Source: a virus. From it: a DNA stretch of 49,356 nucleotides. Of this stretch, positions 4,741 to 25,558 are shown piece after piece. Positions within the stretch are counted from its first letter, which is position 1. The number at the start of each line of letters is the position of its first letter. Below the pieces are notes generated by a model. That model saw only the letters and a list, made by a program, of their open reading frames with translations, made no database searches and had not been told where the DNA came from. The translations under genes were made by a program, and so were the position numbers. The stretch is taken from the IMG/VR virus record IMGVR_UViG_3300006736_003764, positions 1-49,356 of that record. One strand, written 5' to 3'.

Positions 4741-4769
4741 TTGACAAAATAAAATATTATATATATAAT
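4741..4769 (+). promoter_or_regulatory. Perfect sigma70-type promoter (TTGACA-17-TATAAT)
   Basis: TTGACA at 4741-4746 and TATAAT at 4764-4769 are both full consensus and separated by exactly 17 bp (counted). The box starts 5 bp after the phoH stop. Transcription would start near 4776, only a few bases before the ATG at 4780, while the ribosome binding site GGAG (4770-4773) would lie upstream of the start point. The transcript would therefore be nearly leaderless, unless initiation is further upstream. This is the only full-consensus promoter I noticed in the window, and it suggests host-polymerase (early or middle) expression of the genes that follow. Confidence 0.7.
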
Positions 4770-6853: not shown

Positions 6854-8122
6854 ATGAGCGAAAAAATTAAGATCATGACTATTAGTGATATGCCTTTTGC
6901 ACCTTCTGGTGTGGGCACACAAACAAGATATATTATTGAGAATATGTTAAAAACTGGCAAATACAAATTTGTTAGCTTAGGGGGCGCTATGAAACACGCC
7001 TCGCACAAACCGATTACAACTGAAGAATGGGGCGAAGACTGGATTACTTTTCCAGTAGATGGATACGGCACACAAGAAATTGTAAGATCAATTCTTCGAC
7101 AAGAAAAACCTGATATACTTTGGTTTATGACGGACCCAAGATTTTGGGGTTGGCTGTGGGAAATTGAAAACGAAATCCGCCCACTGGTTCCAATGGTCTA
7201 TTATCATGTTTGGGACAACTACCCCTACCCAGACTATAATAAAAAGTTTTATGAATCAAATGATTTGATCGCGACAATATCTAAAGTCACTGATGACGTT
7301 GTAAGAACTGTGGCGCCCTCAGTAAAATCAATTTACTTACCGCACGCTGTCAACACAGAAGCATTCAAAAAACACGATTCAGAAAAAGTTAAATCATTCG
7401 TTATGAACAGTTTTGGCGATAAATATGATCCGGATAAATTCATTTTCTTTTGGAACAATAGAAATGCACGCCGAAAACAAAGCGGCTCATTAATTTTTTG
7501 GTTTAAAAAGTTTTTAGATAAAGTGGGACACGACAAAGCTTCTTTAATAATGCATACCGATGTTAAAGATGCTCATGGGCAAAACCTTGAAGAGATTGTT
7601 AACCATTTAGGAATAAACAATGGAGAAGTGATGTTCTCGCAGAAAAAAATAAATCCAGAAGTATTAGCATTATTATATAATATGGCTGATTGTACAATTA
7701 ATATAGCAGATGCAGAAGGGTTTGGTTTATCTACTTTAGAATCATTGGCTTGCGAAACCCCCATTATTGTCAACATGACAGGAGGCCTACAGGAACAAGT
7801 AACAGATGGCGAAGAGTGGTTTGGAATTGGGGTAGAGCCTACATCCAAAGGAATAATCGGCTCACAGGAAATATCTTGGATTTATGAGGACCGGCTTTCT
7901 GAAAAGGTGGTTGTTGATGCGATGTTAGAAATGTATAACAAGTCTAAAGAGGAAAGATCTGAATTGGGCAGGAAAGGGCGCAATCACGTAATGACTAACT
8001 ATAATTTTGATAATTTTATTAAAAAATGGGATGAAGTGTTTACAATGGTCCACGAAGAATATGGTTCGTGGGGCACGCGAAAACCATATGATAATCGCTG
8101 GGTTTTAAAGGAGATCGCATGA
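6854..8122 (+). CDS. GT4-family glycosyltransferase
   Basis: This 422-aa GT-B transferase moves a sugar from a nucleotide donor to a growing glycan. The N-terminal domain opens with IMTISDMPFAPSGVGTQTR, the glycine-rich acceptor-side loop of GT4 enzymes. The C-terminal donor domain has FFWNNRNARRKQSG and the E-x7-E signature EGFGLSTLESLACETPII beginning near residue 288. A GAGG-type ribosome binding site (6845-6848) precedes ATG 6854. It is the first gene of the glycan island, and its stop overlaps the next start (ATGA). The tryptophan-rich N-terminal region (WFMTDPRFWGWLWEI) is distinctive. Donor and acceptor are unknown. Confidence 0.88.
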   Translation: MSEKIKIMTISDMPFAPSGVGTQTRYIIENMLKTGKYKFVSLGGAMKHASHKPITTEEWGEDWITFPVDGYGTQEIVRSILRQEKPDILWFMTDPRFWGWLWEIENEIRPLVPMVYYHVWDNYPYPDYNKKFYESNDLIATISKVTDDVVRTVAPSVKSIYLPHAVNTEAFKKHDSEKVKSFVMNSFGDKYDPDKFIFFWNNRNARRKQSGSLIFWFKKFLDKVGHDKASLIMHTDVKDAHGQNLEEIVNHLGINNGEVMFSQKKINPEVLALLYNMADCTINIADAEGFGLSTLESLACETPIIVNMTGGLQEQVTDGEEWFGIGVEPTSKGIIGSQEISWIYEDRLSEKVVVDAMLEMYNKSKEERSELGRKGRNHVMTNYNFDNFIKKWDEVFTMVHEEYGSWGTRKPYDNRWVLKEIA

Positions 8123-9408
8123 AAAAGAAAATATTGGTTAGAGCACCTGTTTTAACGCGGTCAGGCTATGGGGAACATTCTCGATTTGTCTTGCGTTCTC
8201 TTCGCACACAAGAAGACAAATTTGATATTTATGTGTTTCCTGTGAATTGGGGCAAGTGCGGCTGGATATACGACGATAATGAAGAGAGAAGGTGGCTGGA
8301 CAAGCTTATTACCAAGACCGCTCATTATAACCAGGATAAAAATGCATTTTATGATATTAGTATTCAAGTCTCTATCCCAAATGAGTGGGAGCGCATAGCG
8401 CCCATTAATATTGGTGTTACCGCCGGAATTGAAACGAATCGTGTCGCCCCAGTGTGGCTCGAAAGAGCAAACATGATGGACAAAATTATTACAATCTCTA
8501 GTCATTCAAAAAATGTATTTTTAAACACAGAATACGATGCAGTACACAAAGAAACAGGGCAAAAGCTTCAGCTACGCTGCAATAAGCCTGTAGAGGTTGT
8601 CCACTATCCCACAAAAGAATTTGAAGATCTTAATCTTAATTTAAAATTGGAAACTGATTTTAATTTCCTTGCAGTTGCCCAGTGGGGCCCCAGAAAAAAT
8701 TTAGAAAACACAGTAAGATGGTTTGTTGAAGAGTTCATTGACCAGCCGGTGGGCCTTGTTGTTAAAACTTTTATGAAAGGTAATTCCGTCATTGATCGCA
8801 CACACATCGATGCGAAACTTACAAATATATTAGAAAAATATAAAAATAGAAAATGCAAAGTTTATTTATTGCACGGAGACATGACAGATCAGGAGTTGCA
8901 CTCCTTGTATAAACACCCGAAAATTAAAGCATTTGTTTCGCTTGCCCACGGAGAAGGTTTTGGACTTCCTCATTTTGAAGCCGCATATTCAGGCCTCCCG
9001 GTGGTGGCGCCAGAATGGAGTGGGTATCTTGATTTTCTTTGTGCCCCGAGAAAGGATAAAAAAACTGGAAAAGAAAAAATTAAACCATATTTTGCATGCG
9101 TAGACTGTGATTTACAGCCTGTACAAAAAGAGGCGCAATGGGATGGGGTTATACAAGCGGATTCAATGTGGTGTTTTCCGCAGCAAGGCTCATATAAAAT
9201 GAAACTTCGCGAAGTACATAAAGATTATGGGCGATTTAAGAAACAGGCGGATTCGCTTAAAAAATGGATATTAGACAACTTTTCTGAAAAAAAACAATAT
9301 GAAACATTTGCTAGCCACTTAAAAGAATATGCCCCCGTTCCGGGCGAGTTCGTATCTAACAATGAAATAGATGATTTATTTAATAAATTAGCTAAACAGA
9401 GTGTATGA
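8119..9408 (+). CDS. GT4-like glycosyltransferase
   Basis: The 429-aa GT-B protein begins VRAPVLTRSGYGEHSR, an acceptor-side loop similar to the preceding enzyme. It carries FLAVAQWGPRKNLENT and the donor motif HGEGFGLPHFEAAYSGLPVV from about residue 277, with both glutamates of the GT4 signature present. Ribosome binding site aaaggag lies 6-7 nt before ATG 8119, which overlaps the previous stop (ATGA). Its resemblance in opening motif to the first transferase suggests an old duplication and sequential sugar addition, but the specificity cannot be read from sequence. Confidence 0.87.
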   Translation: MKKKILVRAPVLTRSGYGEHSRFVLRSLRTQEDKFDIYVFPVNWGKCGWIYDDNEERRWLDKLITKTAHYNQDKNAFYDISIQVSIPNEWERIAPINIGVTAGIETNRVAPVWLERANMMDKIITISSHSKNVFLNTEYDAVHKETGQKLQLRCNKPVEVVHYPTKEFEDLNLNLKLETDFNFLAVAQWGPRKNLENTVRWFVEEFIDQPVGLVVKTFMKGNSVIDRTHIDAKLTNILEKYKNRKCKVYLLHGDMTDQELHSLYKHPKIKAFVSLAHGEGFGLPHFEAAYSGLPVVAPEWSGYLDFLCAPRKDKKTGKEKIKPYFACVDCDLQPVQKEAQWDGVIQADSMWCFPQQGSYKMKLREVHKDYGRFKKQADSLKKWILDNFSEKKQYETFASHLKEYAPVPGEFVSNNEIDDLFNKLAKQSV

Positions 9409-11021
9409 TCTTTTTTGTTTGCGACATGTTTGCCGAACAGTATGAGGGCGGCGCTGAATTAACTACAGAAGCTATAATTAAAAAGGGATTATTTCCAGTA
9501 AATAAAGTTATTTGCAGCGAAGCCAATCCCGCCATTATGGAAAAGTATAAAGATGCATTTTGGATATTCGGAAATTATAGAGACCTATCAGAAGAGTGTC
9601 TTATGTATGCTGCGAAAAATCTTCACTATAGCGTTTTGGAATATGATTATAAATTTTGTTTCTATCGCTCTATTAAGAAACACGAATTTGCGGAAGGAGC
9701 TTGTACGTGTGTAACTTCAAGAAAAGGAAAGTTAGTATCCATTTTTTTGCACAATGCAAAAGCCACCTGGTGGATGTCTCAAAAACAGATGGAAAAATAT
9801 CAGAGTCTTTATCCATTTTTGAAAAAGAGCAATAATATAGTATTAAACTCTGTGTTCTCTGATGAAACTTTAGAGTACGTTGAAACACTAGATACAGAAA
9901 ATAAAAATGATACATGGTTGATATTGGATTCTCCTTCTTGGATAAAGGGGGCAAAGGAATCCATCAATTATGCTGAAAAAAATAATTTAAAGTATGAACT
10001 AATCTGGGATATCCCGCACTCGAAACTTTTAGATAAGCTAGCGCAATCTAAAGGGATTATTTTTTTCCCCCAAGACTCTGATACATGTCCGAGGATGACA
10101 GTAGAAGCCCGACTACTTGGTTGCGAAATTATATCAAATGACAATATGCAGCATAAAGACGAGCCGTGGTTTAAAAACAAAAATTCTACCATAAAACACT
10201 TAAGGCAGAGAACAAATATTTTTTGGAAAGAGATAGAAAATATCGCTGCCAAAAATCTAAATATTCCGCAAACAATTAGCGTTATTAGTGATCTTAAGTT
10301 TAAAATTGTAGTTCCGTTTTTCAACTGCGAAAGGTGGATCAAAAAATGTATCAACAGCATGCAAAGTCAAAAATATAAAAATTTTGAATGTTTTTTGATA
10401 GATGATGCGTCAACGGACAATTCAGCAGGCATCGTAAAAAAAGAGATTGCAAATGATTCTAGATTTAATTTAATACAGAATAGAGAGAAGAAATATGCCC
10501 TCTCCAACATTGCCGGCGCAATAGAAGAATTCAATTGCAATGATGATGATGTAATTATTTTACTTGACGGAGATGACTGGTTCGCTTCTTCGCTAACTTT
10601 GAATAAACTTTGTGAGAGCTACGGTGACAAATTAATGACTTATGGAAGTTACGTTTTTAATCCTAGCGGTATAAGAGGTCCTGAACCATCAGAATATTCA
10701 AATGAAGTGATTAAAACAAGTTCTTTTAGAAAAGATCAATGGAGAGCCTCTCATCTAAGAACTTTTAAATATGAACTATGGAAACGTATTGATCATAATG
10801 ATTTAAAAGATGAGAATGGTGATTATTATAAAATGACTTATGATCAAGCCATAATGTTTCCCTTGTTGGAAATGGCAGGAGATCGCTCCGCCTTTATACC
10901 AGAAATTTTACACGTCTACAACAAAGACAACCCATTAAGTGTCGACAAAAATAAAGCACAAGAACAATGCGCCCTGGCTCAAAAAATTCGTTCTAAAAAG
11001 ACCTATAGCAAATTAGTATGA
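9405..11021 (+). CDS. Bifunctional GT4-like / GT2 glycosyltransferase fusion
   Basis: The 538-aa chain joins two transferase modules. Residues 1 to about 290 are GT-B-like (TWLILDSPSWIKGAKESINY, then FFPQDSDTCPRMTVEARLLG as the donor site). From about residue 300 a GT-A/GT2 domain starts with FKIVVPFFNCERWIKKCI, followed by FLIDDASTDNS and the DxD-type metal motif LLDGDDWF near residue 387. Both halves keep recognisable donor-binding motifs, so one polypeptide could add two sugars in sequence. The N-terminal half is shorter than a normal GT4 and lacks a clear acceptor-side glycine loop, so it may be degenerate. The start overlaps the preceding stop (ATGA), as does its stop with the next gene. 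Confidence 0.85.
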   Translation: MIFFVCDMFAEQYEGGAELTTEAIIKKGLFPVNKVICSEANPAIMEKYKDAFWIFGNYRDLSEECLMYAAKNLHYSVLEYDYKFCFYRSIKKHEFAEGACTCVTSRKGKLVSIFLHNAKATWWMSQKQMEKYQSLYPFLKKSNNIVLNSVFSDETLEYVETLDTENKNDTWLILDSPSWIKGAKESINYAEKNNLKYELIWDIPHSKLLDKLAQSKGIIFFPQDSDTCPRMTVEARLLGCEIISNDNMQHKDEPWFKNKNSTIKHLRQRTNIFWKEIENIAAKNLNIPQTISVISDLKFKIVVPFFNCERWIKKCINSMQSQKYKNFECFLIDDASTDNSAGIVKKEIANDSRFNLIQNREKKYALSNIAGAIEEFNCNDDDVIILLDGDDWFASSLTLNKLCESYGDKLMTYGSYVFNPSGIRGPEPSEYSNEVIKTSSFRKDQWRASHLRTFKYELWKRIDHNDLKDENGDYYKMTYDQAIMFPLLEMAGDRSAFIPEILHVYNKDNPLSVDKNKAQEQCALAQKIRSKKTYSKLV

Positions 11022-11929
11022 ATATACATTTAGAAAATGTTAATTTACAAAGCACATCCGGTCCAAATCACTTTGCTTCAAAGTTGATTAAATATTTAGA
11101 CGCCACTTTTGATTACAATGAGAAACCAGGCGCGAGATTATGTTTTATAGAGTCTCATAGAAGCACGTTCGACGACATACCCTTATTTCAAAGGCTGGAT
11201 GGCATATATTTCAACACAGCACAAGATTACAAATCGCAGAATACAAACATAAAAAGAACTTATGACAATGCAGATGGTGTTATTTTCCAATCAAACTTCA
11301 ATAAAGAGCTTATAACAAAGCATTTCGGAGAACATAAAAACTCCACTGTTATACATAATGGTGCTGATGTTGAGTATATTGATAAAGTTCCACCACTGGA
11401 AAATTCAAAATTAGATCAACATGAAAATGTTTGGTGTTGCGCTTCTTCCTGGAGGCCACATAAAAGATTGTCTGAGAATATAAAATATTTTTTAGAACAC
11501 TCTTCTGAAAAGGATTGCTTAGTAATTGCAGGCCCTAAAGATCAAGATATAATTAAAAATGATAGAATTTTTTATGTTGGAAATGTAAGTATCCTTCCAC
11601 TTATTTCTTTATATAAAAGATCTAAATATTTCATACATTTAGCATGGCTCGATCATTGTCCAAACGTTGTTGTAGATGCTCGCGCAGCAGATTGTCAAAT
11701 TATTTGCACTTCTGCTGGAGGCACAAAAGAAATTGCTGGGCCGAATGCAATTGTGATTGAAGAAGATAAATGGGATTTTGAGCCAGTTGAATTATATAGC
11801 CCCCCCCCATTAGACTTTAGTAAAAAGATTAAAAATGATTGGGAAATAGATTATAATATGAGAGCAGTCGCAAAAAAATATAAGAATTTTCTAGAAGGTG
11901 TGATAAATGAGAAAAACAAGACATTATAA
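11018..11929 (+). CDS. GT4-like glycosyltransferase (303 aa)
   Basis: This is a compact GT-B transferase. NVNLQSTSGPNHFASKLIKY is the acceptor-side start, VIHNGADVEYIDK is the interdomain hinge commonly seen in GT4, and the donor domain has WRPHKRLSENIKYF and DHCPNVVVDARAADCQII (about residues 211-228), then SAGGTKEI. The usual first glutamate of the E-x7-E motif is replaced around DHCPNVVVDA, as in several divergent GT4 enzymes. A run of eight C near 11801 is in frame and intact. It overlaps both neighbours (ATGA at its start, 23 nt at its end). Confidence 0.82.
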   Translation: MNIHLENVNLQSTSGPNHFASKLIKYLDATFDYNEKPGARLCFIESHRSTFDDIPLFQRLDGIYFNTAQDYKSQNTNIKRTYDNADGVIFQSNFNKELITKHFGEHKNSTVIHNGADVEYIDKVPPLENSKLDQHENVWCCASSWRPHKRLSENIKYFLEHSSEKDCLVIAGPKDQDIIKNDRIFYVGNVSILPLISLYKRSKYFIHLAWLDHCPNVVVDARAADCQIICTSAGGTKEIAGPNAIVIEEDKWDFEPVELYSPPPLDFSKKIKNDWEIDYNMRAVAKKYKNFLEGVINEKNKTL

Positions 11930-13154
11930 CAATTATAAAGAATACCTAGATCATCAAAAAACCAAGACTCTTGACCCAGCGCGCCGAAAAAAATGGCTTA
12001 ATGAAGAGTGGGAATTAAAATTAGATGGTTTTGGGCGGATGTTTGATCGACATATGGGTACTGTTTTACGGCCGGAAATGAAAGTTTTATGTGTTGGCGC
12101 CCGTACAGGTCAAGAAGTAGTCGCCCTTAGAGATAGAAATATTGATGCAGTTGGAATTGATATTGTTCCACACCCACCACACGTAATCCAAGGAGACATG
12201 CACAATCTAGATTTTCCAGATAATAGTTTTGATTTTGTCTTTTCTAATATATTTGATCATTCGTTGTATCCCGACAAGAAGATTTCAGAGATAGAAAGAG
12301 TATTGAAAACCAATGGACATGTTTTATTACAATTCCAAATTGATATTAGCCAAGATGAATATACAGAAGTTATCGTTAATCGTGTTGATCATGATGTATT
12401 GCCCTTGTTTGAAAAGTCATTTTGTATTGTTAAAGAAAATATTCCAAGAAACTTTGCAGGGATGAATTATGAAGTATTAATGAAAAAAGATGCGCTTATG
12501 TCTTCCTTGTATGATAAGGTTGGCAATGTGACAGAAATCACGTTACCAGAAGAATATAAAAAAATTTGGAATGATATAAATTTGCCAATTCAAACCAACA
12601 AAGGGCATGTACATAATATACAAGGACCCGAGCTTGATGAGTGTTTGAATAAATTATCCAAAAGGGCATATTATCTTGTCTCTATAGCAGAACACTTCGG
12701 TGTTAAAAACATTGCTGAAGTCGGCACAGCACAAGGATGGCAATTTTACTCTTTCGCTCATTATGCACAAAAAGTTGGTGGCAAGGTTTATAGCTGCGAT
12801 ATTAAAGATGTTAGAAATGAACAATATAAAAATAAATATTTGAATTCATCTGTATTCTGTTTAGGGGATAGTAAACAACTAGCTAATAGATTAAAAGAAG
12901 ATAATACAAAAATTGATTTATTCTATATTGATGGCGATCACATAGCAAAAGCTGTCTTAACGGACGTGATTAACCTCAGAGATTATCAATCGGATCAATG
13001 CATATGGGTTTTTGATGATTATGATGCAAGATTTGGGTGCTTTAAAGAGATAGGAATGTTACAACAAATTAATAATAATTTTAAAGTTTATCGTGTTGGA
13101 GATGCAGCCAGCGGAAATCCAAACCATCAAGTTGTTATATTGGGGAAACTTTAA
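11907..13154 (+). CDS. Double SAM methyltransferase fusion
   Basis: The 415-aa protein holds two class I methyltransferase-like Rossmann domains. The first (about residues 50-190) has motif I VLCVGARTGQEV at 60-71, AVGIDIV with the acidic ribose-binding residue, and FDFVFSNIFDHSLYP. The second (about 260-415) has IAEVGTAQGWQFYSFA, VYSCDIKD, DLFYIDGDH near 338 and WVFDDYDARFG, typical of the methyltransf_24 type that often modifies sugars. Probable role: methylating two positions on the glycan or its nucleotide-sugar precursor. The 23-nt overlap with the upstream GT argues for coupled translation. Whether both domains are catalytic is not known. Confidence 0.8.
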   Translation: MRKTRHYNNYKEYLDHQKTKTLDPARRKKWLNEEWELKLDGFGRMFDRHMGTVLRPEMKVLCVGARTGQEVVALRDRNIDAVGIDIVPHPPHVIQGDMHNLDFPDNSFDFVFSNIFDHSLYPDKKISEIERVLKTNGHVLLQFQIDISQDEYTEVIVNRVDHDVLPLFEKSFCIVKENIPRNFAGMNYEVLMKKDALMSSLYDKVGNVTEITLPEEYKKIWNDINLPIQTNKGHVHNIQGPELDECLNKLSKRAYYLVSIAEHFGVKNIAEVGTAQGWQFYSFAHYAQKVGGKVYSCDIKDVRNEQYKNKYLNSSVFCLGDSKQLANRLKEDNTKIDLFYIDGDHIAKAVLTDVINLRDYQSDQCIWVFDDYDARFGCFKEIGMLQQINNNFKVYRVGDAASGNPNHQVVILGKL

Positions 13155-13162
13155 GGAAAAAA

Positions 13163-14404
13163 ATGTTAAAAAGTTTAGAATTTAAATCATTTGAGTTTAA
13201 CTCGCGCAAAGAAACATTAATCGGCATCGACGCAACTAGAAAGTACGTAATCAAGATACAGATTATAAAAAATAAAAACAAAGCCAACAGTATAGAACAA
13301 GAATACGAAGTGATGAAACATTTAAATAAGAATGGTTGCGTAACGTGCCCAGAAGCATATGAGTTGGGGACAGTACAAAAATCAGAAATTTATCCTAAAA
13401 CAAGAGAAAACAATATTTTAGATTCTATTGATAAAACAAAATTTGAATATATTATTCAAGAGTATATCCCAGACAGCGGAACACACAAATTAGCAGATAT
13501 AGTGTTAGCCCTTATTGAACAAAAAAAATTAGGAGTTTATCAAGGGGACGTAAAGCCAGATAATGTTAGATTTGATCCGAGTAAAAATATTTGTTATTTT
13601 ATTGACTACGATCAGTCTATTTTTCTCAGTGATGAACAATCTAATCTAGATAATATTAGTTTTTTAAATTTTTGTTCTGAGTATGATAAAGCCAAGTATG
13701 GCTTCGGCAATTGGCTTCGACATTTTTCTCGGTATACAGAGCGTAATGTAACATCTTTGTTTAGTAATAAGGCTTTCAATCTTGAAGCTACTACTGTTTT
13801 TAAAACTCAAAAGACTACTAATTCTGCAAGTGGCATATACCACTCTATTGATGAAAGAGACATTTTTATTAATGGCTCAAGGGCGCTGGATGTTCGTGCA
13901 AAACTATTGGATGAATGTACTTTTGATGCAAATGAAAGAGTTTTAGATATTGGTTGTAATGCGGGGCTGCTTAGCATGTATCTTCACGATAGGGGATGCC
14001 GAACAGTTGGAGTTGATAACGATCCTCATATTGTTGTTGCATCTAAAATTATTTCAAACATTCTTGGGAAAAACATTGAGTATTTTCATCTAGATTTAGA
14101 TCGCACAGAACAGGTAGAAGACTTTGATACAATAATGTTGTTTTCAGTAATTCACCACACCAGAGACCTTGTTAAGAATGCTAGAAAAATAGCAAATTCA
14201 TGTTCTAGGTTTTTTTTGGAAACCAGATTAATTGAGAGCGGTAAACAACCATATGGAGATATATGGGTAGACACGACAAGATGGTCTTTTGATACTGTTG
14301 ATGAATTGGTTTCTTTTTGTGAAAGTATTTTTGAAGGCTTTAAGTTGAAAACTAACTTAGGAATGGCAGATAAAGATCGTTATATATTAGAGTTTGTTAA
14401 GTGA
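13163..14404 (+). CDS. Kinase-methyltransferase fusion (WbdD-like pair of activities)
   Basis: The N-terminal domain (about 1-210) is protein-kinase-like: Lys31 in YVIKIQ, a helix with Glu45/47, the catalytic loop YQGDVKPDNVRF (Asp129, Lys131, Asn134) and the metal Asp148 in FIDYD. The core residues are intact. The C-terminal domain (about 220-413) is a class I methyltransferase with motif I RVLDIGCNAGLLS around 259-270 and TVGVDNDPH. In WbdD of E. coli O9a, a methyltransferase followed by a kinase puts a methyl-phosphate cap on the polymannan end and stops growth. Here the same two activities occur in reverse order within a glycan island. A capping or chain-length role is therefore my inference; phosphorylation of a small sugar is the alternative. 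Confidence 0.8.
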   Translation: MLKSLEFKSFEFNSRKETLIGIDATRKYVIKIQIIKNKNKANSIEQEYEVMKHLNKNGCVTCPEAYELGTVQKSEIYPKTRENNILDSIDKTKFEYIIQEYIPDSGTHKLADIVLALIEQKKLGVYQGDVKPDNVRFDPSKNICYFIDYDQSIFLSDEQSNLDNISFLNFCSEYDKAKYGFGNWLRHFSRYTERNVTSLFSNKAFNLEATTVFKTQKTTNSASGIYHSIDERDIFINGSRALDVRAKLLDECTFDANERVLDIGCNAGLLSMYLHDRGCRTVGVDNDPHIVVASKIISNILGKNIEYFHLDLDRTEQVEDFDTIMLFSVIHHTRDLVKNARKIANSCSRFFLETRLIESGKQPYGDIWVDTTRWSFDTVDELVSFCESIFEGFKLKTNLGMADKDRYILEFVK

Positions 14405-17744: not shown

Positions 17745-18445
17745 GAATAAGCATACATCAGCCGGAACATATGCCATGGCTTGGTTTTTTTAACAAAGCT
17801 ATTAATTGTGATATTTTTGTGCTTTTAGATACCGTTCAGTTTGAGAAGGATTATTTTCAAAATCGAAATCAAATTATATCAAATAATGCTAATGGTCGAG
17901 AGTGGCTCACCATCCCTGTAAAAAAAGGCAGACACACAGATTTAATTTGTGAAAAACAAACAGCATTTAATCGAAAGACCAAAAATAAATATTTACAACA
18001 AATATATAGAGCCTATAGTTCTTATCCTTTTTATCGCGATATAATGTGCGACATTACAAGCATTATTAATTATGATGATGTATATTTATCAAAGTTGAAC
18101 ATCAAGCTAATAAAATATTTTATTAATCTATTAAACATAAAATGTAAATTACAAGTATCATCTGATCTTCAGTTGAGGCCATGCGAACCAGGCGGCGTAA
18201 TAAATTATAATATTTGCAAGAAGCTGGGTGCAACAACGTATTTGTCGGGAAAATCAGGTAAAAATTATTTAGACGAAACCCCGTATTTAAAAGATAATAT
18301 TTCTGTTAAATACCAAAATTTTAAACATCCAGAATATCTTCAACCTAGAGACAGTTTTATTTCTAACTTGAGTATTCTAGACTTGGTTTTTTCTTTAAGT
18401 GTTGACCAGTGTTGTGATATAATAAACGAAGCATACCAGATATAA
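17741..18445 (+). CDS. WbqC-like protein
   Basis: GTG at 17741 overlaps the preceding stop. The 234-aa product begins RISIHQPEHMPWLGFFNKA, then DIFVLLDTVQFEKDYFQNRN. These are the hallmark blocks of the WbqC family (HQPxYxPWxGYF ... D.FV..D.VQF.K...NR). The later part has GATTYLSGKSGKNYLD. WbqC proteins lie in O-antigen and modified-sugar clusters, often beside acyl- or amino-transferases. They are thought to help install an N-acyl group on an amino sugar, though the reaction is not settled. Directly following the PIG-L deacetylase gene, it could add a new acyl group to the freed amine. Confidence 0.88.
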   Translation: MRISIHQPEHMPWLGFFNKAINCDIFVLLDTVQFEKDYFQNRNQIISNNANGREWLTIPVKKGRHTDLICEKQTAFNRKTKNKYLQQIYRAYSSYPFYRDIMCDITSIINYDDVYLSKLNIKLIKYFINLLNIKCKLQVSSDLQLRPCEPGGVINYNICKKLGATTYLSGKSGKNYLDETPYLKDNISVKYQNFKHPEYLQPRDSFISNLSILDLVFSLSVDQCCDIINEAYQI

Positions 18446-18461
18446 ATTAACAGGAGTAAAC

Positions 18462-19121
18462 GTGTTAGATAAGAAGAAAGTGAGAGGATTAATATGTGGC
18501 CGCGGCAAATCATTAAAACACTATAATAAGCTTTTATCGACAAAATTTGATTTTACTTACCTGGTTAATGAATTTAATCGATTTATTAGAGAAGATGAAA
18601 ATTTATTGTTGTTTTTAAAAAGCAAGTCAGAAGAAGGTCACTTAACCCAACAAGTCAATATCGAAGCTGGGGGAGTTGACTCTTTTTTGTTAGAAAACAT
18701 AGAAATAAAAGAAATAATAATGGCTAGGTTGGCATACAATGGTGAAAACTCAAAATGGCGCCCTCGTATAAATACAAACATTTTTAATCACTTTGGAAAA
18801 ACCCTACAATTACAGCCGGATACAGTCGCTCCTTATATGAAATATATTGAAAACTCTTTAGGTATTGCAATATTGAATTTAATAGTTGACAAGGGTTGCG
18901 ATGAAATATGTATTATAGGCTCGGACTTTTATGAGGCTGACTATTATCTTTCCCACCGCGGCCCTGATTGGTTTGAGGTTTCTAAGAAGAAAATACAGGA
19001 TAAATTAAAAAAAGGGATTGATCAGTTGGTGGAAATATTCCCAGAGGTGAAGTTTAATATTTACACCTGTTCAACTTATAAAAATAATTTTGCTAACTGT
19101 GATATCACAAAAATTGAGTAA
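18462..19121 (+). CDS. GT42/DUF115-like putative sialyltransferase
   Basis: GTG 18462 has a good ribosome binding site (aggag at 18452-18456). The 219-aa protein starts VRGLICGRGKSLKHYNKL, like the nucleotide-binding opening of CstII-type GT42 sialyltransferases (GNGPSL) and of DUF115/MptE-like proteins. It later has GIAILNLIVDKGCDEICIIG followed by SDFYEADYY, matching the family's 'G.DFY' strand. GT42 enzymes transfer sialic acid from CMP-sialic acid; a NeuB-like synthase and a CTP-transferase-like gene lie a few genes downstream. The match is partial and short, so a different CMP-nonulosonate transferase or a pterin-kinase-like fold remains possible. Confidence 0.55.
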   Translation: MLDKKKVRGLICGRGKSLKHYNKLLSTKFDFTYLVNEFNRFIREDENLLLFLKSKSEEGHLTQQVNIEAGGVDSFLLENIEIKEIIMARLAYNGENSKWRPRINTNIFNHFGKTLQLQPDTVAPYMKYIENSLGIAILNLIVDKGCDEICIIGSDFYEADYYLSHRGPDWFEVSKKKIQDKLKKGIDQLVEIFPEVKFNIYTCSTYKNNFANCDITKIE

Positions 19122-19129
19122 ATTTTAAT

Positions 19130-20749
19130 ATGAGCACCAAAACAGATATCGGTATGAAAATAACTTTTATTAACATGCCTCTTCGCGAATCAGCTTCGCC
19201 CAATACTCCACCCGAAGGTCCAGGTATATTAGCAGCAATTGCACGCCGGCACGGAGCAGAGTCGTATATACTTGATTTAAATGCTTATCGGATTAAAGAT
19301 ATCATAGCTGAAAAAAGAGGGCTCCCGAATGGAAGACACTTAACATATGATGAGGCTGAGAATTTAATAGTTCAACATATTAAAAACGTGGGCGATCAAG
19401 ACATAATTGCTTTTTCTGGCAAAATAACGACTTTAAGATGGCAAGAACAAATAGCAAAAATCATTAGAAACCATCAGCCAGATGCCTTTTTAGTAAGCGG
19501 GAATGGCCTAGCTACAGAAATCAAGACAGGCCTATTCAATTGGATTCCAGAATTAGATGCAATTGGAAGATCAGAAGGGGATGATATTATTCTTTTAATT
19601 TTGCAAGATGCAAAAACTATAAAAGAAATGGGGATTAATAAGGCTTTACGATCCGGTAGACTAAGCACATCTTACATAGGGGAACTTAATGGAAAACATA
19701 GGTTTTGCTATGAAGGTGATAGGCCTCGTAATCTAGATGTGATCCCATATGCAGCGTGGGATTTATTAGAGTCTGATCCATATGGTCATAATGTTTTAGA
19801 AGACTACATTAAAATACCGGTGTGGGGAATTGCTGCAAATAATAGCTCTGCCACCCCTTTTACTATGGAGAGAAGCTTAACTACAGTTAGTAGTCGTGGC
19901 TGTCCGTATGCATGCGCATTTTGCTACCGCGGCTCTCAAGGCGAGCGAAATTATGGGATGAGATCTCCAGAGCACATTGCAAAACAAATTAAAGAGTATG
20001 TTGATAATTACAATCTAGATTTTATAGGCTTTCCAGATGATAATTTTGCAGTAGATAAAAGAAGAATGGAAAGAATCCCAGAAGTTTTTAAGGAATACGG
20101 AATTAATCATATTAGGTGGGGCACACACACTCGTATGGATGAAGCAGATGAACGAATATTCGACATGGCACGAGGTGGGTGTGTATATATTGGCTTTGGA
20201 GCAGAATCTGCTTCTCCTCACACTTTGAAGCTCATGAAAAAGGGCGGTTTTATATTAAAAAATGGCCTAACGCCAACAAAAATTAATGGAAAAATTTATG
20301 AGTTTCCAACAACCATGGTTAACGCCGTTAAAAACAGTAAAAAAGCTGGTGTACACGCAAACTGTACTTGGATCATGGCATACCCAGGAGAAGAGCTAAA
20401 ACATTTAAAAACAAGCGTAGCATTTATTTTATGGCAACAGGAATTTTGGTCGAATAGAGAATCAGTGAATAGAAAAATGTTTACAGCAACTGCATATCCC
20501 GGGACAGAAATGTGGAAAGTGGTTCGCCCACAATTAGAAAAGCATTTTAATATCAATTTTAATGTTATGGGAGAGCCCATTTGTGATGAAAATTTTCATC
20601 AATATGTTTTAGAATTAGATGATGCTACGAAAGTTTTAAATAATAAACATGGAAATCCTGTAAATTTTGGCAGGATGCCAATGGAAACTTTCCTACAGGC
20701 TAGAGACTATGTTAATTCTGATCAAATAGAAAAGATCTTAGACATGTAG
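19130..20749 (+). CDS. B12-binding radical SAM enzyme
   Basis: The 539-aa protein has an N-terminal cobalamin-binding-like domain (about 10-150; ITFINMPLRESASPNTPPEG, then a Rossmann pattern ending FLVSGNGLATEI). A radical SAM barrel follows, with CPYACAFC (Cys258, Cys262, Cys265) binding the 4Fe-4S cluster, then FIGFPDDNFA and YIGFGAESASPHTLKLM. Such enzymes catalyse methylation at unreactive carbons, ring rearrangement or other radical steps. Within this island a C-methyl or otherwise altered sugar is a plausible product, but the substrate cannot be deduced. The domain does not show the conserved DxHxxG B12-ligand motif clearly, so cobalamin may bind base-off. The ATG at 19130 is used; a second start (19154) sits at the MKITFINM strand. 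Confidence 0.82.
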   Translation: MSTKTDIGMKITFINMPLRESASPNTPPEGPGILAAIARRHGAESYILDLNAYRIKDIIAEKRGLPNGRHLTYDEAENLIVQHIKNVGDQDIIAFSGKITTLRWQEQIAKIIRNHQPDAFLVSGNGLATEIKTGLFNWIPELDAIGRSEGDDIILLILQDAKTIKEMGINKALRSGRLSTSYIGELNGKHRFCYEGDRPRNLDVIPYAAWDLLESDPYGHNVLEDYIKIPVWGIAANNSSATPFTMERSLTTVSSRGCPYACAFCYRGSQGERNYGMRSPEHIAKQIKEYVDNYNLDFIGFPDDNFAVDKRRMERIPEVFKEYGINHIRWGTHTRMDEADERIFDMARGGCVYIGFGAESASPHTLKLMKKGGFILKNGLTPTKINGKIYEFPTTMVNAVKNSKKAGVHANCTWIMAYPGEELKHLKTSVAFILWQQEFWSNRESVNRKMFTATAYPGTEMWKVVRPQLEKHFNINFNVMGEPICDENFHQYVLELDDATKVLNNKHGNPVNFGRMPMETFLQARDYVNSDQIEKILDM

Positions 20750-20756
20750 GGAATAT

Positions 20757-21524
20757 ATGTCAAAAGCTATATTTATAACAGTTCGATCCGGATCATCCCG
20801 ATTACCAAAAAAAGCGTTATTAAAAATTAATGATGCTGCAACAATAGAACATTTAATAAATCATGTAAGAAAATCACAAAAAGCTGATAAAATTGTTGTT
20901 TGTACTACTGTCTCTAAAAATGACGACGAAATTTGTGCTTTGGCAGAGAAGAGCGGAGTTAATTTTTTTAGAGGGAGCATTAAAGATAAATTAGATAGAT
21001 GTTTAAAAGCTGCGTTGCATTATAATATAGAATATTTTGTTAATGTTGATGGAGATGATATCTTTTGCGAGCCGGAATTAATTGATTTGGCTTTTGATCA
21101 GTATGAAGCTGACAATCATGATTTCATAAAGTCAAATGAAAAAGACCTTGTTTGCGGAGCTTTCACTTTTGGTATTAAAACAGAGGCGCTAAAAGAAATC
21201 TGTCGTATTAAAGATACTGATGATACTGAAGCTGCGTGGCTTTTATTTTCTGAAATTTCTTCTATTAAGACGTCAATGCTGGACAATATACCCGAGATAT
21301 ATTGCCGTCCAGAAATAAGAGCAACCCTGGATTACTCAGAAGATCTAGAATTTTTTAAAGCTATAATTGATCATTTTCACGACCGAAACAAAAAACAATT
21401 TAGCTTGAGAGATATTATATCTTTTATAGATTCGAATCCTGACGTTCTGTTAATCAACAGACACAGGCATAAAGATTATTTAGAAAATCAAAAAAAATTA
21501 TTAAAAAATATAGGAGTCCAATAG
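20757..21524 (+). CDS. SpsF/NeuA-like sugar nucleotidyltransferase
   Basis: The 255-aa product begins AIFITVRSGSSRLPKKALLKI. The SGSSRLPxK loop binds CTP in the CMP-Kdo and CMP-sialate synthetase family and in SpsF. It continues with VVCTTVSKNDDEI and the metal-binding YFVNVDGDDIF. These enzymes join CMP (or another nucleotide) to an acidic sugar. With the NeuB-like gene 1.7 kb downstream, the natural reading is activation of a nonulosonic acid as a CMP-sugar for the GT42-like protein. It ends one base before the aminotransferase start, so translation is tightly linked. Residues 250-255 end shortly after a DYLENQKKLL helix, the usual family length. Confidence 0.83.
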   Translation: MSKAIFITVRSGSSRLPKKALLKINDAATIEHLINHVRKSQKADKIVVCTTVSKNDDEICALAEKSGVNFFRGSIKDKLDRCLKAALHYNIEYFVNVDGDDIFCEPELIDLAFDQYEADNHDFIKSNEKDLVCGAFTFGIKTEALKEICRIKDTDDTEAAWLLFSEISSIKTSMLDNIPEIYCRPEIRATLDYSEDLEFFKAIIDHFHDRNKKQFSLRDIISFIDSNPDVLLINRHRHKDYLENQKKLLKNIGVQ

Positions 21525-22541
21525 ATGTCCGAATTAAAAGAAAGAGTTACATATCATTCCGGTGAATGGGTACCGGAATCTAAAGCTGCGATTCATATAT
21601 ATGATTCTCAGTTTATGTATGGAGATGGTGTTTTTGAGATGGTTAGAACTTTTAAACATAAGTTCTTTTTGTTGGAAGAGCATATCGACAGGCTTTATAG
21701 AAGCATGAAGTACATGCATATACCATTTAATAAAACAAAACAAGAAGCAATTGATTTATGTTTAGAATCATTTGATAGAAACAAGGCCCACTTTCCGGAA
21801 GGAGAAGAGTGTCGTGTGATGATTAATGTTTCTAGGGGTCCACTAGGCATATATAAAGAAGTATTTGAGCTATCCAAAAGTCAAGCTTGGAATGAACCAA
21901 CTTGGATTGTGAATGTTTGGCCTCTTAGTAAAACTGCTGGAATATTAGGGCATTTTTATGAGACAGGCGCTAATGCGGTGATTCCATCACAAAGACAAAT
22001 CCCCTCGCGCCTGTTGGAAAACAAAGTTAAAAATAGGAGTAGATTTCATTACCAAATGGCAAATATACAGGTTTCTTCTTTTGGCAAGGATGCTATGCCG
22101 TTGTTATTAGATGAGGATGGCTTTATAACTGAGAGCACAGGCGCAAACTTTTTAATGATAAAAGATGGAAAGTTGATTGCTCCGGAGCTAAGAAACATGC
22201 TCAGAGGCTCTAGTATGATGTATATTTTGGAAGTTTTAGCTCCTCAAATTGGTTTAGAAGTGGTTCATAAAAACTTTGAACCTTATGATGTTATGAATTG
22301 TGATGAGGCTATGTTCACTGGAACTTTTGTTAATTTGCTCCCTTGTAATAGATTAAACGGAATATATCTTAATGCGGACATAAAAGAAAATCCAATTGGG
22401 CCGGTCACACAAAGAATTTGTGACGCATGGTCAAAAAATGTTGGGATTAATTTTATAGGACAAATAAAAGATTGGTCTAAAAATGTTTCTTCAGTGGGCA
22501 TATCAAGTGCAATGTTGGGGTCTGGAGGTGAAAATGAGTAA
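21525..22541 (+). CDS. Class IV PLP aminotransferase (branched-chain/D-amino-acid type)
   Basis: The 338-aa enzyme shows IHIYDSQFMYGDGVFEMVRT at the N-terminus, the probable PLP lysine Lys169 in ENKVKNRSRFHYQMA, ITESTGANFLMIKDG (the Glu that contacts the pyridine N) and FTGTFVNLLPC near the C-terminus, all in the order of fold-type IV transaminases. Known members act on branched-chain amino acids, D-amino acids or aminodeoxychorismate rather than on sugars. Its place inside a sugar pathway therefore points to an unusual amino donor step or an amino-acid substituent on the glycan. The ATG follows the upstream stop without a gap, and the stop overlaps the SDR gene start. Confidence 0.85.
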   Translation: MSELKERVTYHSGEWVPESKAAIHIYDSQFMYGDGVFEMVRTFKHKFFLLEEHIDRLYRSMKYMHIPFNKTKQEAIDLCLESFDRNKAHFPEGEECRVMINVSRGPLGIYKEVFELSKSQAWNEPTWIVNVWPLSKTAGILGHFYETGANAVIPSQRQIPSRLLENKVKNRSRFHYQMANIQVSSFGKDAMPLLLDEDGFITESTGANFLMIKDGKLIAPELRNMLRGSSMMYILEVLAPQIGLEVVHKNFEPYDVMNCDEAMFTGTFVNLLPCNRLNGIYLNADIKENPIGPVTQRICDAWSKNVGINFIGQIKDWSKNVSSVGISSAMLGSGGENE

Positions 22542-23229
22542 GAGGATAATTATAACCGGCTCAGAGGGGCTTTTAGGAAAAGAGATAAGTAGATATTTAG
22601 AATCTACTGGCCACTCTGTGATCGGGTGTGATTTACAGCTTGGTCACGATTTAACAGATGAAGAATTTGTAAAAGATTTTTTTAAGAAAAATAAAGCAGA
22701 TTGTTTAGCAAATTTGTATGCTATTAATCCACATGTGAATTCAGAGGATTACTCTACAAACATGTTTGATATAACTTTAGATTCTTTAAATTCGTATTTA
22801 CAGGTTAACCTTTTGAGTCTTTTTTCTGTTTGTAGAGAATATGCAAGAAATAATAAAAATGGCTCTATAATTAATTTTTCTTCGACATATGGAATTGTAT
22901 CGCCCAATCCTGCGCTTTATGAAGAGGGAAAAGAAAAACATATTGGCTATTGCGTTTCTAAATCTGGTGTGATACAATTAACTAGATATTTGGCTGTACA
23001 CTTAGCACCAAATATCAGGGTAAACTGCGTAGCACCAGGAGGCGTTACTTTTGAACCCACTAACGAACATAGTAAAAAGTTTATTGAACAATACAGAGAG
23101 AAAACACCTATGAAAAGAATGATGAATGTTGATGAATTAAATGGAATTATCGAATATTTATGTTCTGACAAATCCTCATATGCTACTGGGACTACCTTTC
23201 ATATTGACGGGGGCTGGACCATATGGTAG
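22534..23229 (+). CDS. Short-chain dehydrogenase/reductase
   Basis: The 231-aa NAD(P)-dependent oxidoreductase has the cofactor loop TGSEGLLG (8-15), which differs from the usual TGxxxGIG. It also has IINFSSTYG with the catalytic serine, YCVSK as Y-x3-K, and NCVAPGGV and TTFHIDGGW at the C-terminus. The frame is open further upstream, but I start at ATG 22534, which has the ribosome binding site ggaggtg and leaves the Rossmann strand at the N-terminus. It overlaps the aminotransferase stop by 8 nt and the NeuB-like start by 7 nt. Oxidation or reduction of a keto-sugar intermediate is the likely role. SDRs of this look are common in legionaminate-type clusters. Confidence 0.85.
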   Translation: MSKRIIITGSEGLLGKEISRYLESTGHSVIGCDLQLGHDLTDEEFVKDFFKKNKADCLANLYAINPHVNSEDYSTNMFDITLDSLNSYLQVNLLSLFSVCREYARNNKNGSIINFSSTYGIVSPNPALYEEGKEKHIGYCVSKSGVIQLTRYLAVHLAPNIRVNCVAPGGVTFEPTNEHSKKFIEQYREKTPMKRMMNVDELNGIIEYLCSDKSSYATGTTFHIDGGWTIW

Positions 23230-24074: not shown

Positions 24075-24106
24075 TGAAAAGTAGTTATGATGTGATTAAA
24101 TGGTAA
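24074..24106 (+). CDS. Possible translational-coupling micro-ORF (10 aa)
   Basis: The ATG at 24074 shares its A with the stop of the NeuB-like gene and has a strong ribosome binding site (gagggg) 6 nt upstream. The frame encodes only MKSSYDVIKW and stops at 24104-24106, seven bases into the HAD gene, whose ATG (24100) has no recognisable ribosome binding site. The arrangement suggests that ribosomes load at the micro-ORF and re-initiate on the HAD gene. The peptide itself need have no function. A decayed gene start is the alternative. Confidence 0.4.
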   Translation: MKSSYDVIKW

Positions 24107-24411
24107 TTTATGTAGATATTGATGAAACAATTTGTATAACACCAGGAGATGCGCATACGGCAAGAAATTATGAAAATGCAAAACCTCTATTAAAAAACAT
24201 TGAAAAATGTAATAAACTATATGAAGATGGTAATACAATTGTATATTGGACCGCCAGAGGGTGTACAACTGGTATAGATTGGTTTGACGTTACAGAAAAG
24301 CAATTAAATGAATGGGATGTTAAATATCACGATCTAAAATTGGGAAAGCCATTTTATGATTTATTTATTGATGATAAAGCAATAAATTCAAAAGATTTTT
24401 TTAAAAATTAG
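24100..24411 (+). CDS. Minimal HAD-family phosphatase
   Basis: The 103-aa protein is a cap-less HAD hydrolase: motif I YVDIDETIC (DxDxT, nucleophile Asp6, general acid Asp8), motif II TIVYWTARG, then LGKPFYDLFIDDKA, combining the motif III lysine with the motif IV acidic pair. Similar mini-HADs occur in capsule and LPS clusters. If the NeuB-like enzyme uses a phosphorylated aldose, as in Kdn-9-phosphate synthesis, this protein could remove the phosphate. Translation probably depends on the upstream micro-ORF. Confidence 0.78.
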   Translation: MVIYVDIDETICITPGDAHTARNYENAKPLLKNIEKCNKLYEDGNTIVYWTARGCTTGIDWFDVTEKQLNEWDVKYHDLKLGKPFYDLFIDDKAINSKDFFKN

Positions 24412-24422
24412 GAGGAAAATAG

Positions 24423-25307
24423 ATGGCTAAATGCTTAGTTACGGGTCATAAAGGATATATTGGCTCAAAAGTATATGCAAGATTAAAGGAATTAGGACAC
24501 GAGGTACAAGGAATAGATCTTTTTGATGGTTATGATATATTAAAAGATTTAAAAGAATATAATGAACCAATGCGTGGTCGTTTCCATCCACATTATCATG
24601 AGTTCAAGCCAGAATATATTTTTCATTTAGCCTGCATCCCGCGTGTTGCTTATAGTGTTGAAAACCCTGCGCGTACAATGAAAAACAATGTTCTAGCTAC
24701 GACATATATCCTTAATTTTGCTAGAAAAAGAAATGTAAAGCGCGTTATTTATTCTGGATCGTCTTCAGTCGTTGGTAATGGATCCGGCCCGAGCAGCCCA
24801 TATGGATTACAAAAATTAATTTCAGAGATGGAATGTAAATTGTATTCTGATTTATATGGATTAGATACTGTTTCTTTACGTTACTTTAACGTATATTCTC
24901 CAGATCAAGAGGCAAGCGGCCCGTATGCAACGGCAATCGCAAATTGGATGCAATATATTAGAGATGGCAAAACTCCATATATAACTGGTAACGGGGAACA
25001 AAAACGCGATATGGCACATTTAAATGATATAGTGTCGGCAAATATTTTTGCAATGGAACATAAAAAGGATTTCAATGGACAACATTTTGATGTTGGGACA
25101 GGTAGCAATATTTCTTTAAATGAAATTAAGAATATTGTTTTAGATTATTTTCCAAATATAAAATTTGATTACACTGAAGAAAGAAAGGGCGATGTACTAC
25201 ACACACAAGCAAATATATTGCCTTTAAAAGAGTTAGGATGGCACGCTAAAGTGAACATCGTTGATGGCATTAACGAATGCTTTAAAATATTAAAAGAAAG
25301 GAGTTAG
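24423..25307 (+). CDS. NAD-dependent nucleotide-sugar epimerase/dehydratase
   Basis: The 294-aa extended SDR has the cofactor loop VTGHKGYIG (6-14), FHLACIPRVAYSVENPART and YSGSSSVVGNG with the catalytic serine region. SPYGLQK gives Y-x3-K, then come LRYFNVYSPDQ and KRDMAHLNDIV, the standard GalE/WbpP-like sequence of blocks. It probably interconverts a UDP- or GDP-sugar and so supplies a donor for the transferases upstream. A ribosome binding site (aggag) lies 8-9 nt before ATG 24423. It is the last enzyme gene of the island; small phage genes start 2 nt later. Confidence 0.88.
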   Translation: MAKCLVTGHKGYIGSKVYARLKELGHEVQGIDLFDGYDILKDLKEYNEPMRGRFHPHYHEFKPEYIFHLACIPRVAYSVENPARTMKNNVLATTYILNFARKRNVKRVIYSGSSSVVGNGSGPSSPYGLQKLISEMECKLYSDLYGLDTVSLRYFNVYSPDQEASGPYATAIANWMQYIRDGKTPYITGNGEQKRDMAHLNDIVSANIFAMEHKKDFNGQHFDVGTGSNISLNEIKNIVLDYFPNIKFDYTEERKGDVLHTQANILPLKELGWHAKVNIVDGINECFKILKERS

Positions 25308-25309: not shown

Positions 25310-25558
25310 ATGACACAAGATAAAAATATGTCAATGTCAGACCAAGCAGTGGGGGCCGTTATGATGGCTCTCCAAAAAAGTTTAATGGAACAAAGCGATA
25401 TTGTTCCGGTGCTAAAAGGGTTTAAATTTAGATTATCCAAACAAGGTCTTGCCGTTTTGAACCCACCTATTGTTAAGTTCAATGAGGAAACCCAAAATAA
25501 TTTTCAAGAAAGTTTAGATTTTGGAGACCAAGACCATTCTGAAGATTCAACTTCATAA
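25310..25558 (+). CDS. Hypothetical phage protein (82 aa)
   Basis: An aaaggag site precedes the ATG. The product has a helical N-terminal half (SMSDQAVGAVMMALQKSLME), a short strand region (VPVLKGFKFRLSKQGLAVLN) and an acidic, disordered C-terminus (FGDQDHSEDSTS). No catalytic motif is visible. It marks the return from the glycan island to phage-type small genes, and its stop overlaps the next start (TAATG). Function unknown. Confidence 0.65.
   Translation: MTQDKNMSMSDQAVGAVMMALQKSLMEQSDIVPVLKGFKFRLSKQGLAVLNPPIVKFNEETQNNFQESLDFGDQDHSEDSTS

Follow-up and report, generated by a model that had tools for sequence, protein, structure and literature searches.

Sugar gene clusters in T4-like phages and glycosylation of phage virions are both already known. 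In the available sections of PMC3037559, the T4-like cyanophages P-SSM2, S-SSM7 and S-SM2 carry large gene clusters of the lipopolysaccharide (LPS) type, which in P-SSM2 lie near phoH. The accessible text of PMC12619734 treats virion glycosylation and cites Freeman 2023 for glycans on the capsid and tail tube subunits of mycobacteriophages. As far as the available text goes, the Far-T4 phages include Rhodothermus phage RM378 (PMC4360716), and the moraphage core gene groups include four putative glycosyltransferases, with a Rhodothermus phage placed outside the main clade of the moraphage trees (PMC12619734); a cassette locus is not described in these parts of either paper, and the word stem "glycos-" does not occur in that of PMC4360716. 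Here, we analyzed the 49,356-base IMG/VR virus record IMGVR_UViG_3300006736_003764 over its whole length (positions 1–49,356; the window), in which a run of mostly sugar genes occupies positions 6854–25307. We show that this run is one of very many interchangeable alleles at one fixed hypervariable site. Only its first two genes, two glycosyltransferase (GT) genes here called GT_a and GT_b, are conserved, a point that an initial annotation of the window had missed; the rest is exchangeable.

The locus was found at the same place in related contigs. Loci were collected with GT_a and, as a second sample, with PhoH, and since only the best 80 of 523 and the best 80 of 214 loci, respectively, were kept, the tallies, which include duplicates, describe the nearer part of the lineage. 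The exonuclease gene lies directly 5′ of GT_a in 72 of the 73 GT_a loci with more than 1.5 kb upstream, and GT_b lies directly 3′ of GT_a in 68 of the 69 with more than 2.5 kb downstream (L172, without a called GT_a open reading frame (ORF), was left out); one ORF intervenes in each of the two exceptions. In one locus, L203, an epimerase-like ORF (25% identity) stands before position 9968 between the exonuclease and GT_a, the sole case among the 73. In the PhoH sample, the exonuclease, GT_a and GT_b were present in all 45 loci with at least 7 kb downstream, the other 35 of the 80 being too short. We next compared 53 sequences (the window, stretches of 48 IMG/VR contigs and regions of four named phages). 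A gp55-like sigma gene lies 3′ of GT_a in 46 of them, and in all 46, the window and its near-twin contig G001 included, the exonuclease is found within two ORFs 5′ of GT_a. Sequences counted as near-duplicates if their GT_a was 95% alike or more and if 60% or more of their cassette genes were in common at 80%; nine were dropped on this rule, which left 37 cassettes; G037, G041, G068 and the four named phages were left out of the cassette count. The recurrence in related T4-like contigs to which the initial annotation had looked for support is thus seen in both samples.

These junctions also bear on the finding that the initial annotation named as what would overturn it, an assembly chimera joining bacterial O-antigen genes to phage genes. 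The same exonuclease, GT_a and sigma junctions recur across dozens of divergent contigs (46 sequences, 37 of them non-redundant), and the complete genomes of Flavobacterium phage immuto and Microcystis phage Mel-JY01 have almost the same gene order on the 5′ side, where a single ORF separates the nuclease from GT_a. The chimera is therefore ruled out, and we give it virtually no chance of being correct. The 84.7 kb contig G001 differs from the window at 1 of 49,356 bases; it is nearly the same genome, perhaps from the same population, and so provides consistency rather than an independent sample. T4-type portal (PF07230) and capsid (PF07068) proteins were each found in 13 of 15 records, including all nine searched IMG/VR contigs longer than 130 kb, and the two records without a match, G001 and G011, are fragments. 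By these markers the phage lineage is T4-type, with a putative Far-T4-like placement, and the earlier claim of a large glycan pathway in such a phage is correct. A PHROGs search gave no name to any of ten G001 ORFs outside the window, and a nucleotide search with the capsid gene of one relative matched no phage record.

To compare the two halves of the locus, we measured conservation over the 37 cassettes. The median pairwise identity was 65% for GT_a and 57% for GT_b, compared to 57% for the exonuclease, 61% for sigma and 67% for PhoH, which shows that the anchor genes are about as conserved as their neighbors; GT_a and GT_b are core genes at a fixed site. Between GT_a and sigma lie 11.5–26.4 kb (median 19.1 kb), holding 689 further ORFs (9–29 in each cassette; the count omits ORFs that match GT_a, GT_b or any of the three small ORFs that precede sigma in the window). 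These fall into 428 families at 50% identity, 300 of which occur in single cassettes, and the family accumulation curve still climbs steadily. Over 666 cassette pairs, the median gene sharing was 0 with an identity threshold of 50% and 0.07 with one of 30%. Among non-redundant pairs, the 25 whose flanks are most alike (86–90% over exonuclease, GT_a and sigma; about a dozen phages) have 0–12% of their cassette genes in common, although the removal of near-duplicates by itself lowers sharing among the closest pairs. Conversely, G038 and G049 have flanks only 61% alike, yet 86% of their cassette genes are in common. The window and G049 have a common seven-gene module from the radical SAM enzyme to the epimerase with 56–79% identity, and five of the seven genes exceed the 60–68% of the exonuclease, GT_a, GT_b and sigma. 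Counter to this pattern of unlike neighbors, G066 and G069 (flanks 83%) share 100% of their cassette genes, and G057 and G052 (82%) share 49%. By analogy with bacterial serotype loci, the pattern may reflect exchange of alleles together with long-lived alleles.

In other phages, too, many cassette genes are sugar-making genes. From the 621 eligible genes outside the window, 150 were drawn at random, coming from 35 of the 37 cassettes, and the top 25 of 135 families included 21 Epimerase domains, 8 DegT aminotransferases, 6 family-2 GTs, 6 FkbM methyltransferases, 4 UDP-sugar dehydrogenases and 4 NeuB synthases. Genes were called as the longest ORFs of at least 60 amino acids, and for this reason the single minus-strand ORFs in some cassettes are probably spurious. 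The median ratio of nonsynonymous to synonymous substitution rates (dN/dS) was 0.052 for G066/G069 (8 of 14 genes, with dS near saturation and the other six not computable), 0.034 for G038/G039 (16 genes, maximum 0.37) and 0.14 for G057/G052 (7 genes), and the one cassette gene common to the window and G003 gave 0.21. In the pairs tested, the cassette genes are under purifying selection, which argues against stuffer DNA, a passive genomic island that would fill the head without a function in infection. Such filling has been proposed as an alternative for the cyanophage LPS clusters, in the part of PMC3037559 available, and it would fit the variation in cassette length (11.5–26.4 kb). However, besides the low dN/dS in three pairs, the coding fraction of 0.96–1.02 and the fixed position with anchors in 45 of 45 loci speak against it, and we consider it very improbable.

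We next characterized the two anchor proteins. Both belong to the GT4 family: PF00534 scores above its cut-off, the predicted folds are GT-B, and a glutamate pair in E-x7-E spacing, which we take to be the GT4 motif, is invariant (E288 and E296 in 39 GT_a sequences, E279 and E287 in 34 GT_b sequences). The best PDB profile match of both was 3oy2, the B736L protein of chlorovirus NY-2A (2.6e-11 for GT_a, 2.1e-6 for GT_b). For the predicted GT_a fold (predicted local distance difference test, pLDDT, 87.8), 6kih (Z 36.5, root-mean-square deviation 2.8, 354 residues aligned) and 3oy2 (Z 35.7, 3.4, 368) were tied; for GT_b (pLDDT 92.6), 3oy2 was best (Z 31.3, 2.8, 339), 3.1 above the next. A fold shared with 3oy2 in such models shows no function, and in the part of PMC5408694 available the biochemical function of B736L is not established. 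T4 AGT and BGT were not among the listed fold matches of either anchor, which is no evidence either way.

GT_a relatives were found in 9 of 50,697 phage records: four records of immuto, Mel-JY01, LR756508, RM378 and two records of Tetrasphaera phage TJE1 (22%); at E 1e-5, none came from Synechococcus or Prochlorococcus phages. In immuto, where GT_a is gp181, the nuclease and a short ORF precede GT_a and GT_b, in that order, and eleven genes follow, eight of which bear names of the sugar type. In Mel-JY01, an IMP dehydrogenase-like gene stands between the nuclease and GT_a, which is divided over two ORFs; GT_b comes next, and then further transferase and methyltransferase genes. RM378 has a clear GT_a (hhalign E 2e-38) and a weaker GT_b (E 1.3e-6). 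In LR756508, ORFs of NeuB, HAD and epimerase-like type accompany GT_a in a region of about 22 kb, and no GT_b was recognized. Our literature search found no paper describing immuto or Mel-JY01. In a genome collection, GT_a had five matches, in metagenome-assembled genomes (MAGs) of five unrelated groups, four of them on contigs shorter than 10 kb and the fifth in a 2.8 Mb WOR-3 record. Inferring a bacterial host from these matches was rejected, and they are read as phage sequence binned with bacteria. The WOR-3 locus (L272, 4619–11328) holds PhoH, the exonuclease, a shortened GT_a and then an 801-residue ORF, either a binning error or an inserted phage.

We searched for export machinery in 41 records, made up of the four named phages and 37 non-redundant contigs, among which G001 represented the window and G039 represented G038. 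Hidden Markov model (HMM) searches found the initiating phosphoglycosyltransferase (PF02397) in 0 of 41 and the flippase (PF01943) in 0 of 41, while 9 of 14 and 13 of 14 controls, respectively, were detected. By hydropathy, 658 of the 689 variable ORFs have no membrane segment, 27 have one and four have two, with none higher; three of those four are minus-strand and probably spurious. As a control, among 28 E. coli K-12 surface-sugar genes the method gave 6 segments for wbbH, 9 for rfbX, 9 for wzxC, 5 for wcaJ and 8 for wcaD, and at most 1 for the rest. For polymerase and ligase, hydropathy gave no candidate among the 689 ORFs (the E. coli polymerases score 6 and 8), and no HMM search was made for these families. 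The earlier remark that no flippase, ligase or polymerase gene is seen is thus borne out, for the flippase by both methods and for the other two by hydropathy. Taken together, these results speak against a self-sufficient surface polysaccharide.

The initial annotation left three targets for the glycan open, namely the virion, the host surface and DNA, and our data favor the virion without proving it. We propose, with confidence evenly divided between acceptance and doubt, that glycans are built in the cytoplasm on proteins of the phage particle, with a conserved core and an exchangeable outer part. After infection, strong promoters of the host type would drive transcription of the run ahead of the late genes. 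The cassette would make activated sugars, here probably including an acid of the nonulosonate type activated with cytidine monophosphate (CMP). GT_a and GT_b would put the conserved core onto a conserved virion protein, the transferases and methyltransferases of the cassette would add the variable part, and the finished particle would be covered in sugars that differ from allele to allele. Many alleles may persist through frequency-dependent selection, whether this is exerted by lectins or receptors on the host surface, by rival phages, by grazers or through particle adsorption; this would explain why close phages have unrelated cassettes and distant phages the same one. The surfaces of Flavobacterium, Rhodothermus and Microcystis differ, and anchors conserved across such hosts suggest a phage-encoded acceptor. 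With the same evenly divided confidence, the proposal draws on the lack of a detectable export step and, by analogy, on the core-plus-variable glycans of chloroviruses.

Several points weigh against glycosylation of virion proteins. Both the virion glycan and its acceptor are putative. GT4 folds resemble one another, and MshA, PimB′ and WaaG score high with the anchors too. RM378 keeps the anchors without any cassette behind them, and its GT_b-like protein is without the second motif glutamate, which may mean a changed role; the anchors may therefore do something else. Lipid A-core sugars are also added by cytoplasmic GTs, so that absent export genes are also compatible with host LPS as the target. 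Phages whose flanks are 86–90% alike but whose cassettes differ are strongly divergent in the proteins encoded right behind sigma as well; however, G038 and G049 share a cassette, and their first tail protein has no match and the others only 28–29%, and given this pair we claim no coupling between tail and cassette. No particular tail protein thus goes with a cassette, an arrangement that suits a conserved acceptor and likewise a target outside the virion. In the capsid protein, a variable stretch has 34–35% identity versus 81% elsewhere in nine relatives (L274–L282), and in seven cyanophages, none of which is among the GT_a matches, 36% versus 76% (an eighth, S-CAM9, was left out since its annotated capsid start is internal). 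Since the cyanophage capsids vary as much, the stretch was rejected as an acceptor signal, and only its length is unusual (209–249 residues in the nine relatives versus 78–90 in the cyanophages).

Two other targets were weighed against virion proteins. The soluble enzymes might remodel the host surface by altering the LPS core or lipid-linked precursors at the inner membrane, with flippase and ligase borrowed from the host, so that superinfection is blocked or the cell masked. Cyanophage LPS clusters have been read in this way. The kinds of enzymes equal those of LPS and O-antigen loci, and GT_a resembles WaaG (Z 29.5); the function of the cyanophage clusters is left open in the available part of PMC3037559. 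We nevertheless regard this as unlikely, given the lipid-carrier initiator and flippase found in none of 41 records, anchors that are conserved in phages of three hosts with different surfaces, and RM378, in which they persist without a cassette. Less likely than virion proteins, and in our view a long way from probable, is DNA as the target, with the anchors glycosylating a modified base and the cassette varying the sugar against restriction enzymes. The anchors do adjoin an exonuclease gene, immuto has DpdA/Que 7-deazaguanine genes as well as a member of PF00303 (thymidylate synthase/dCMP hydroxymethylase), and GTs encoded by viruses are reported to attach diverse glycans to DNA. However, PF00303 was present only in immuto and LR756508 and was not found in 47 of 49 records, that is, in all 45 IMG/VR records (fragments, G001 included) and the complete RM378 and Mel-JY01 genomes, which speaks against T4-type DNA glucosylation there. 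In addition, 9–29 further ORFs per cassette would exceed the needs of a base. A search for TET/JBP was silent, as were its controls, and is uninformative.

In the window, 19 plus-strand ORFs fill 6854–25307 with spacings of −59 to +25 bases between neighbors (Table 1). The run lies on one strand and holds 19 genes rather than the twenty first described, and not all of them overlap. Pfam, NCBIfam and PHROGs agree with its description as mostly sugar genes, showing GTs, methyltransferases, a PIG-L deacetylase and sugar-nucleotide enzymes. Group-1 GT domains were found in four ORFs, those at 6854, 8119 and 11018 above the curated Pfam cut-off and that at 15008 below it. The CGRGxSL start of the ORF at 18462 presumably recalls the sialyltransferase-like GT42/DUF115 proteins, which no search supported, and a three-row alignment did not settle its identity. 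From what is established for NeuB and CMP-sugar synthetases, the probable product of the module of cytidylyltransferase, aminotransferase, SDR oxidoreductase, NeuB, HAD phosphatase and epimerase is a nonulosonate-like acid activated with CMP. Since the NCBIfam matches listed all score below cut-off, this assignment stops short of the exact sugar. The NeuB-family ORF covers positions 2–274 of 329 in TIGR03569 and is thus shorter than the profile; its 283 residues are close to the 290 of PDB 6ncs, and most NeuB frames in relatives have 271–306, a few 345–487. NeuB-type synthases occur in 20 of 41 related contigs, and the small HAD phosphatase is also close to the 3′ end of several other cassettes. 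A genome scan found no close bacterial relatives of the class IV aminotransferase, and the true start of the SDR ORF is probably later, at MSKRIIITG.

Table 1. Features of the sugar locus and its flanks in the window; "variable" marks genes of the exchangeable part.
Feature	Position	Strand	Evidence
Perfect sigma-70 type promoter TTGACA-17-TATAAT, 1 of 2	4511..4539	+	12-of-12 match
Perfect sigma-70 type promoter, 2 of 2	4741..4769	+	5′ of run leading into exonuclease and sugar genes
Exonuclease, fixed 5′ flank	6068..6844	+	phrog_69 1.9e-21
GT_a, conserved anchor glycosyltransferase, GT4 type	6854..8122	+	PF00534 45.3 bits
GT_b, second conserved anchor glycosyltransferase, GT4 type	8119..9408	+	PF00534 29.2 bits
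Variable: C-terminal family-2 GT	9405..11021	+	PF00535 9.6e-20
Variable: group-1 GT	11018..11929	+	PF00534 28.6 bits
Variable: double methyltransferase	11907..13154	+	PF08241 and PF13578
Variable: kinase-like (weak APH, below cut-off) and methyltransferase	13163..14404	+	Pfam
Variable: possibly methyltransferase	14401..15024	+	no Pfam or PHROG match
Variable: probable group-1 GT	15008..16141	+	PF00534 24.3 bits, below cut-off
Variable: probable glycosyltransferase	16141..17109	+	weak phrog_7162 1.8e-5 alone
Variable: PIG-L de-N-acetylase	17106..17744	+	PF02585 32.5 bits
Variable: WbqC-like	17741..18445	+	PF08889 3.9e-59
Variable: no family assigned	18462..19121	+	no match in Pfam, NCBIfam, PHROGs, PDB
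Variable: B12-binding-type radical SAM enzyme	19130..20749	+	PF04055 9.7e-19; PF02310 and NCBIfam B12 radical SAM families below cut-off
Variable: KdsB-like cytidylyltransferase	20757..21524	+	PF02348 8.7e-21; NCBIfam below cut-off
Variable: class IV aminotransferase	21525..22541	+	PF01063 3.3e-36
Variable: SDR oxidoreductase	22483..23229	+	PF13561 1.9e-34
Variable: NeuB-family synthase, 283 aa	23223..24074	+	PF03102 3.4e-63
Small HAD phosphatase	24100..24411	+	TIGR01689 below cut-off; phrog_1238; no Pfam support
NAD-dependent epimerase/dehydratase	24423..25307	+	PF01370 1.6e-44
Three small ORFs (25310, 25558, 25805), 3′ flank	25310..26107	+	present in many relatives
gp55-like late sigma factor, fixed 3′ flank	26111..26806	+	phrog_234 8.2e-8

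The flanks were called clearly phage in the initial annotation, and the identified genes bear this out, with PhoH and the exonuclease on the 5′ side (the immuto relative of the latter is annotated as a PD-(D/E)XK nuclease) and the gp55-like late sigma gene on the 3′ side, followed by tail genes with gp25 and gp6. The two promoters are the only 12-of-12 sites in the 84.7 kb of G001 (spacers of 16–18, both strands). The pair is kept 2.1–2.8 kb 5′ of GT_a in G002, G003, G004, G005, G007 and G010, the second site having one mismatch in G005 and G007, and 25 of the 37 cassettes have a sigma-70 site with at most one mismatch within 3 kb 5′ of GT_a, a count made without a shuffle control and with little upstream sequence in some contigs. 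The late-promoter motif TATAAATA has 14 sites versus 8.07 expected, and 4 of 100 shuffles reach 14; since 13 of the 14 lie inside genes, these sites were not used as evidence.

Other genes of the window were also noted. A protease-like ORF (2105–2872, minus; phrog_9683) runs opposite to the other genes, and its neighbor has a TATAAATA site upstream, at 3391. An ORF at 725–1777 resembles the archaeal-type (type II) glyceraldehyde-3-phosphate dehydrogenase (NF003251 1.3e-25, below cut-off; no Pfam match) and is conserved in G004 (87%), which is odd for a phage. Of the domains first reported in the tail genes, LamG was found (ORF at 43926), while Pfam found neither DNRLRE nor esterase-like domains in the ORFs at 27097, 31142, 32143 and 42400. 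The C-terminal part of the ORF at 27097–31113 is weakly like an M74 murein endopeptidase (2.7e-4, below cut-off). The proteins right after sigma (27097–40113) form a second hypervariable module; among phages with flanks 86–90% alike they are mostly 24–54% identical over the aligned part or without a match, and gp6 in the same comparison has 45–81% where matched.

Should the coat sit on the virion, phage diversity would gain a new dimension, the glycan serotype, with consequences for adsorption, for host range and for the removal of phages from seawater. The cassettes are also a large store of uncharacterized soluble sugar enzymes. We propose, a little short of an even chance, that marine T4-type phages have true serotypes, with a polymorphic locus, a core-building GT pair, an open pool of cassettes and allele-specific virion glycans. 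Maintenance of the alleles through frequency-dependent selection and their exchange among distantly related phages are part of this proposal and are held with the same slightly-less-than-even confidence. In its available part, PMC3037559 left open whether the cyanophage sugar clusters are functional or only take up space in the head. The question can be tested in the present lineage, because the anchors are present in 45 of 45 loci, the pairs tested show purifying selection, and the named phages immuto, RM378 and Mel-JY01, whose records give cultured hosts, carry the anchors.

In the literature searched, in which subscription papers and preprints were mostly not included, we found no account of a single site that combines a conserved GT pair with serotype-like alleles. 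The cyanophage LPS clusters differ from the present locus in that a fixed site with a conserved GT pair is not described for them in the available text of PMC3037559. Chloroviruses PBCV-1 and NY-2A have virus-encoded cytoplasmic glycosylation, with a conserved core glycan and a virus-specific rest, as described in the accessible part of PMC5408694, and the system proposed here would be alike in this. B736L of NY-2A is a tied-best match of GT_a and the best match of GT_b, and the pattern of conserved and variable genes fits a glycan of this kind, which in the phages is putative; the chloroviruses differ in having a eukaryotic host. To our knowledge, no cassette at one site is known in chloroviruses, and we know of no sugar-synthesis cassette in mycobacteriophages. 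Bacterial Wzx/Wzy O-antigen and capsule loci likewise have conserved flanks, an exchangeable serotype-specific center and the same enzyme classes, but the locus described here is carried by a phage, and no initiating phosphoglycosyltransferase, flippase or polytopic protein was detected in it. Phage glycan serotypes, as proposed, would be the viral counterpart of bacterial O-antigen polymorphism and of the core-plus-decoration glycans of chloroviruses.

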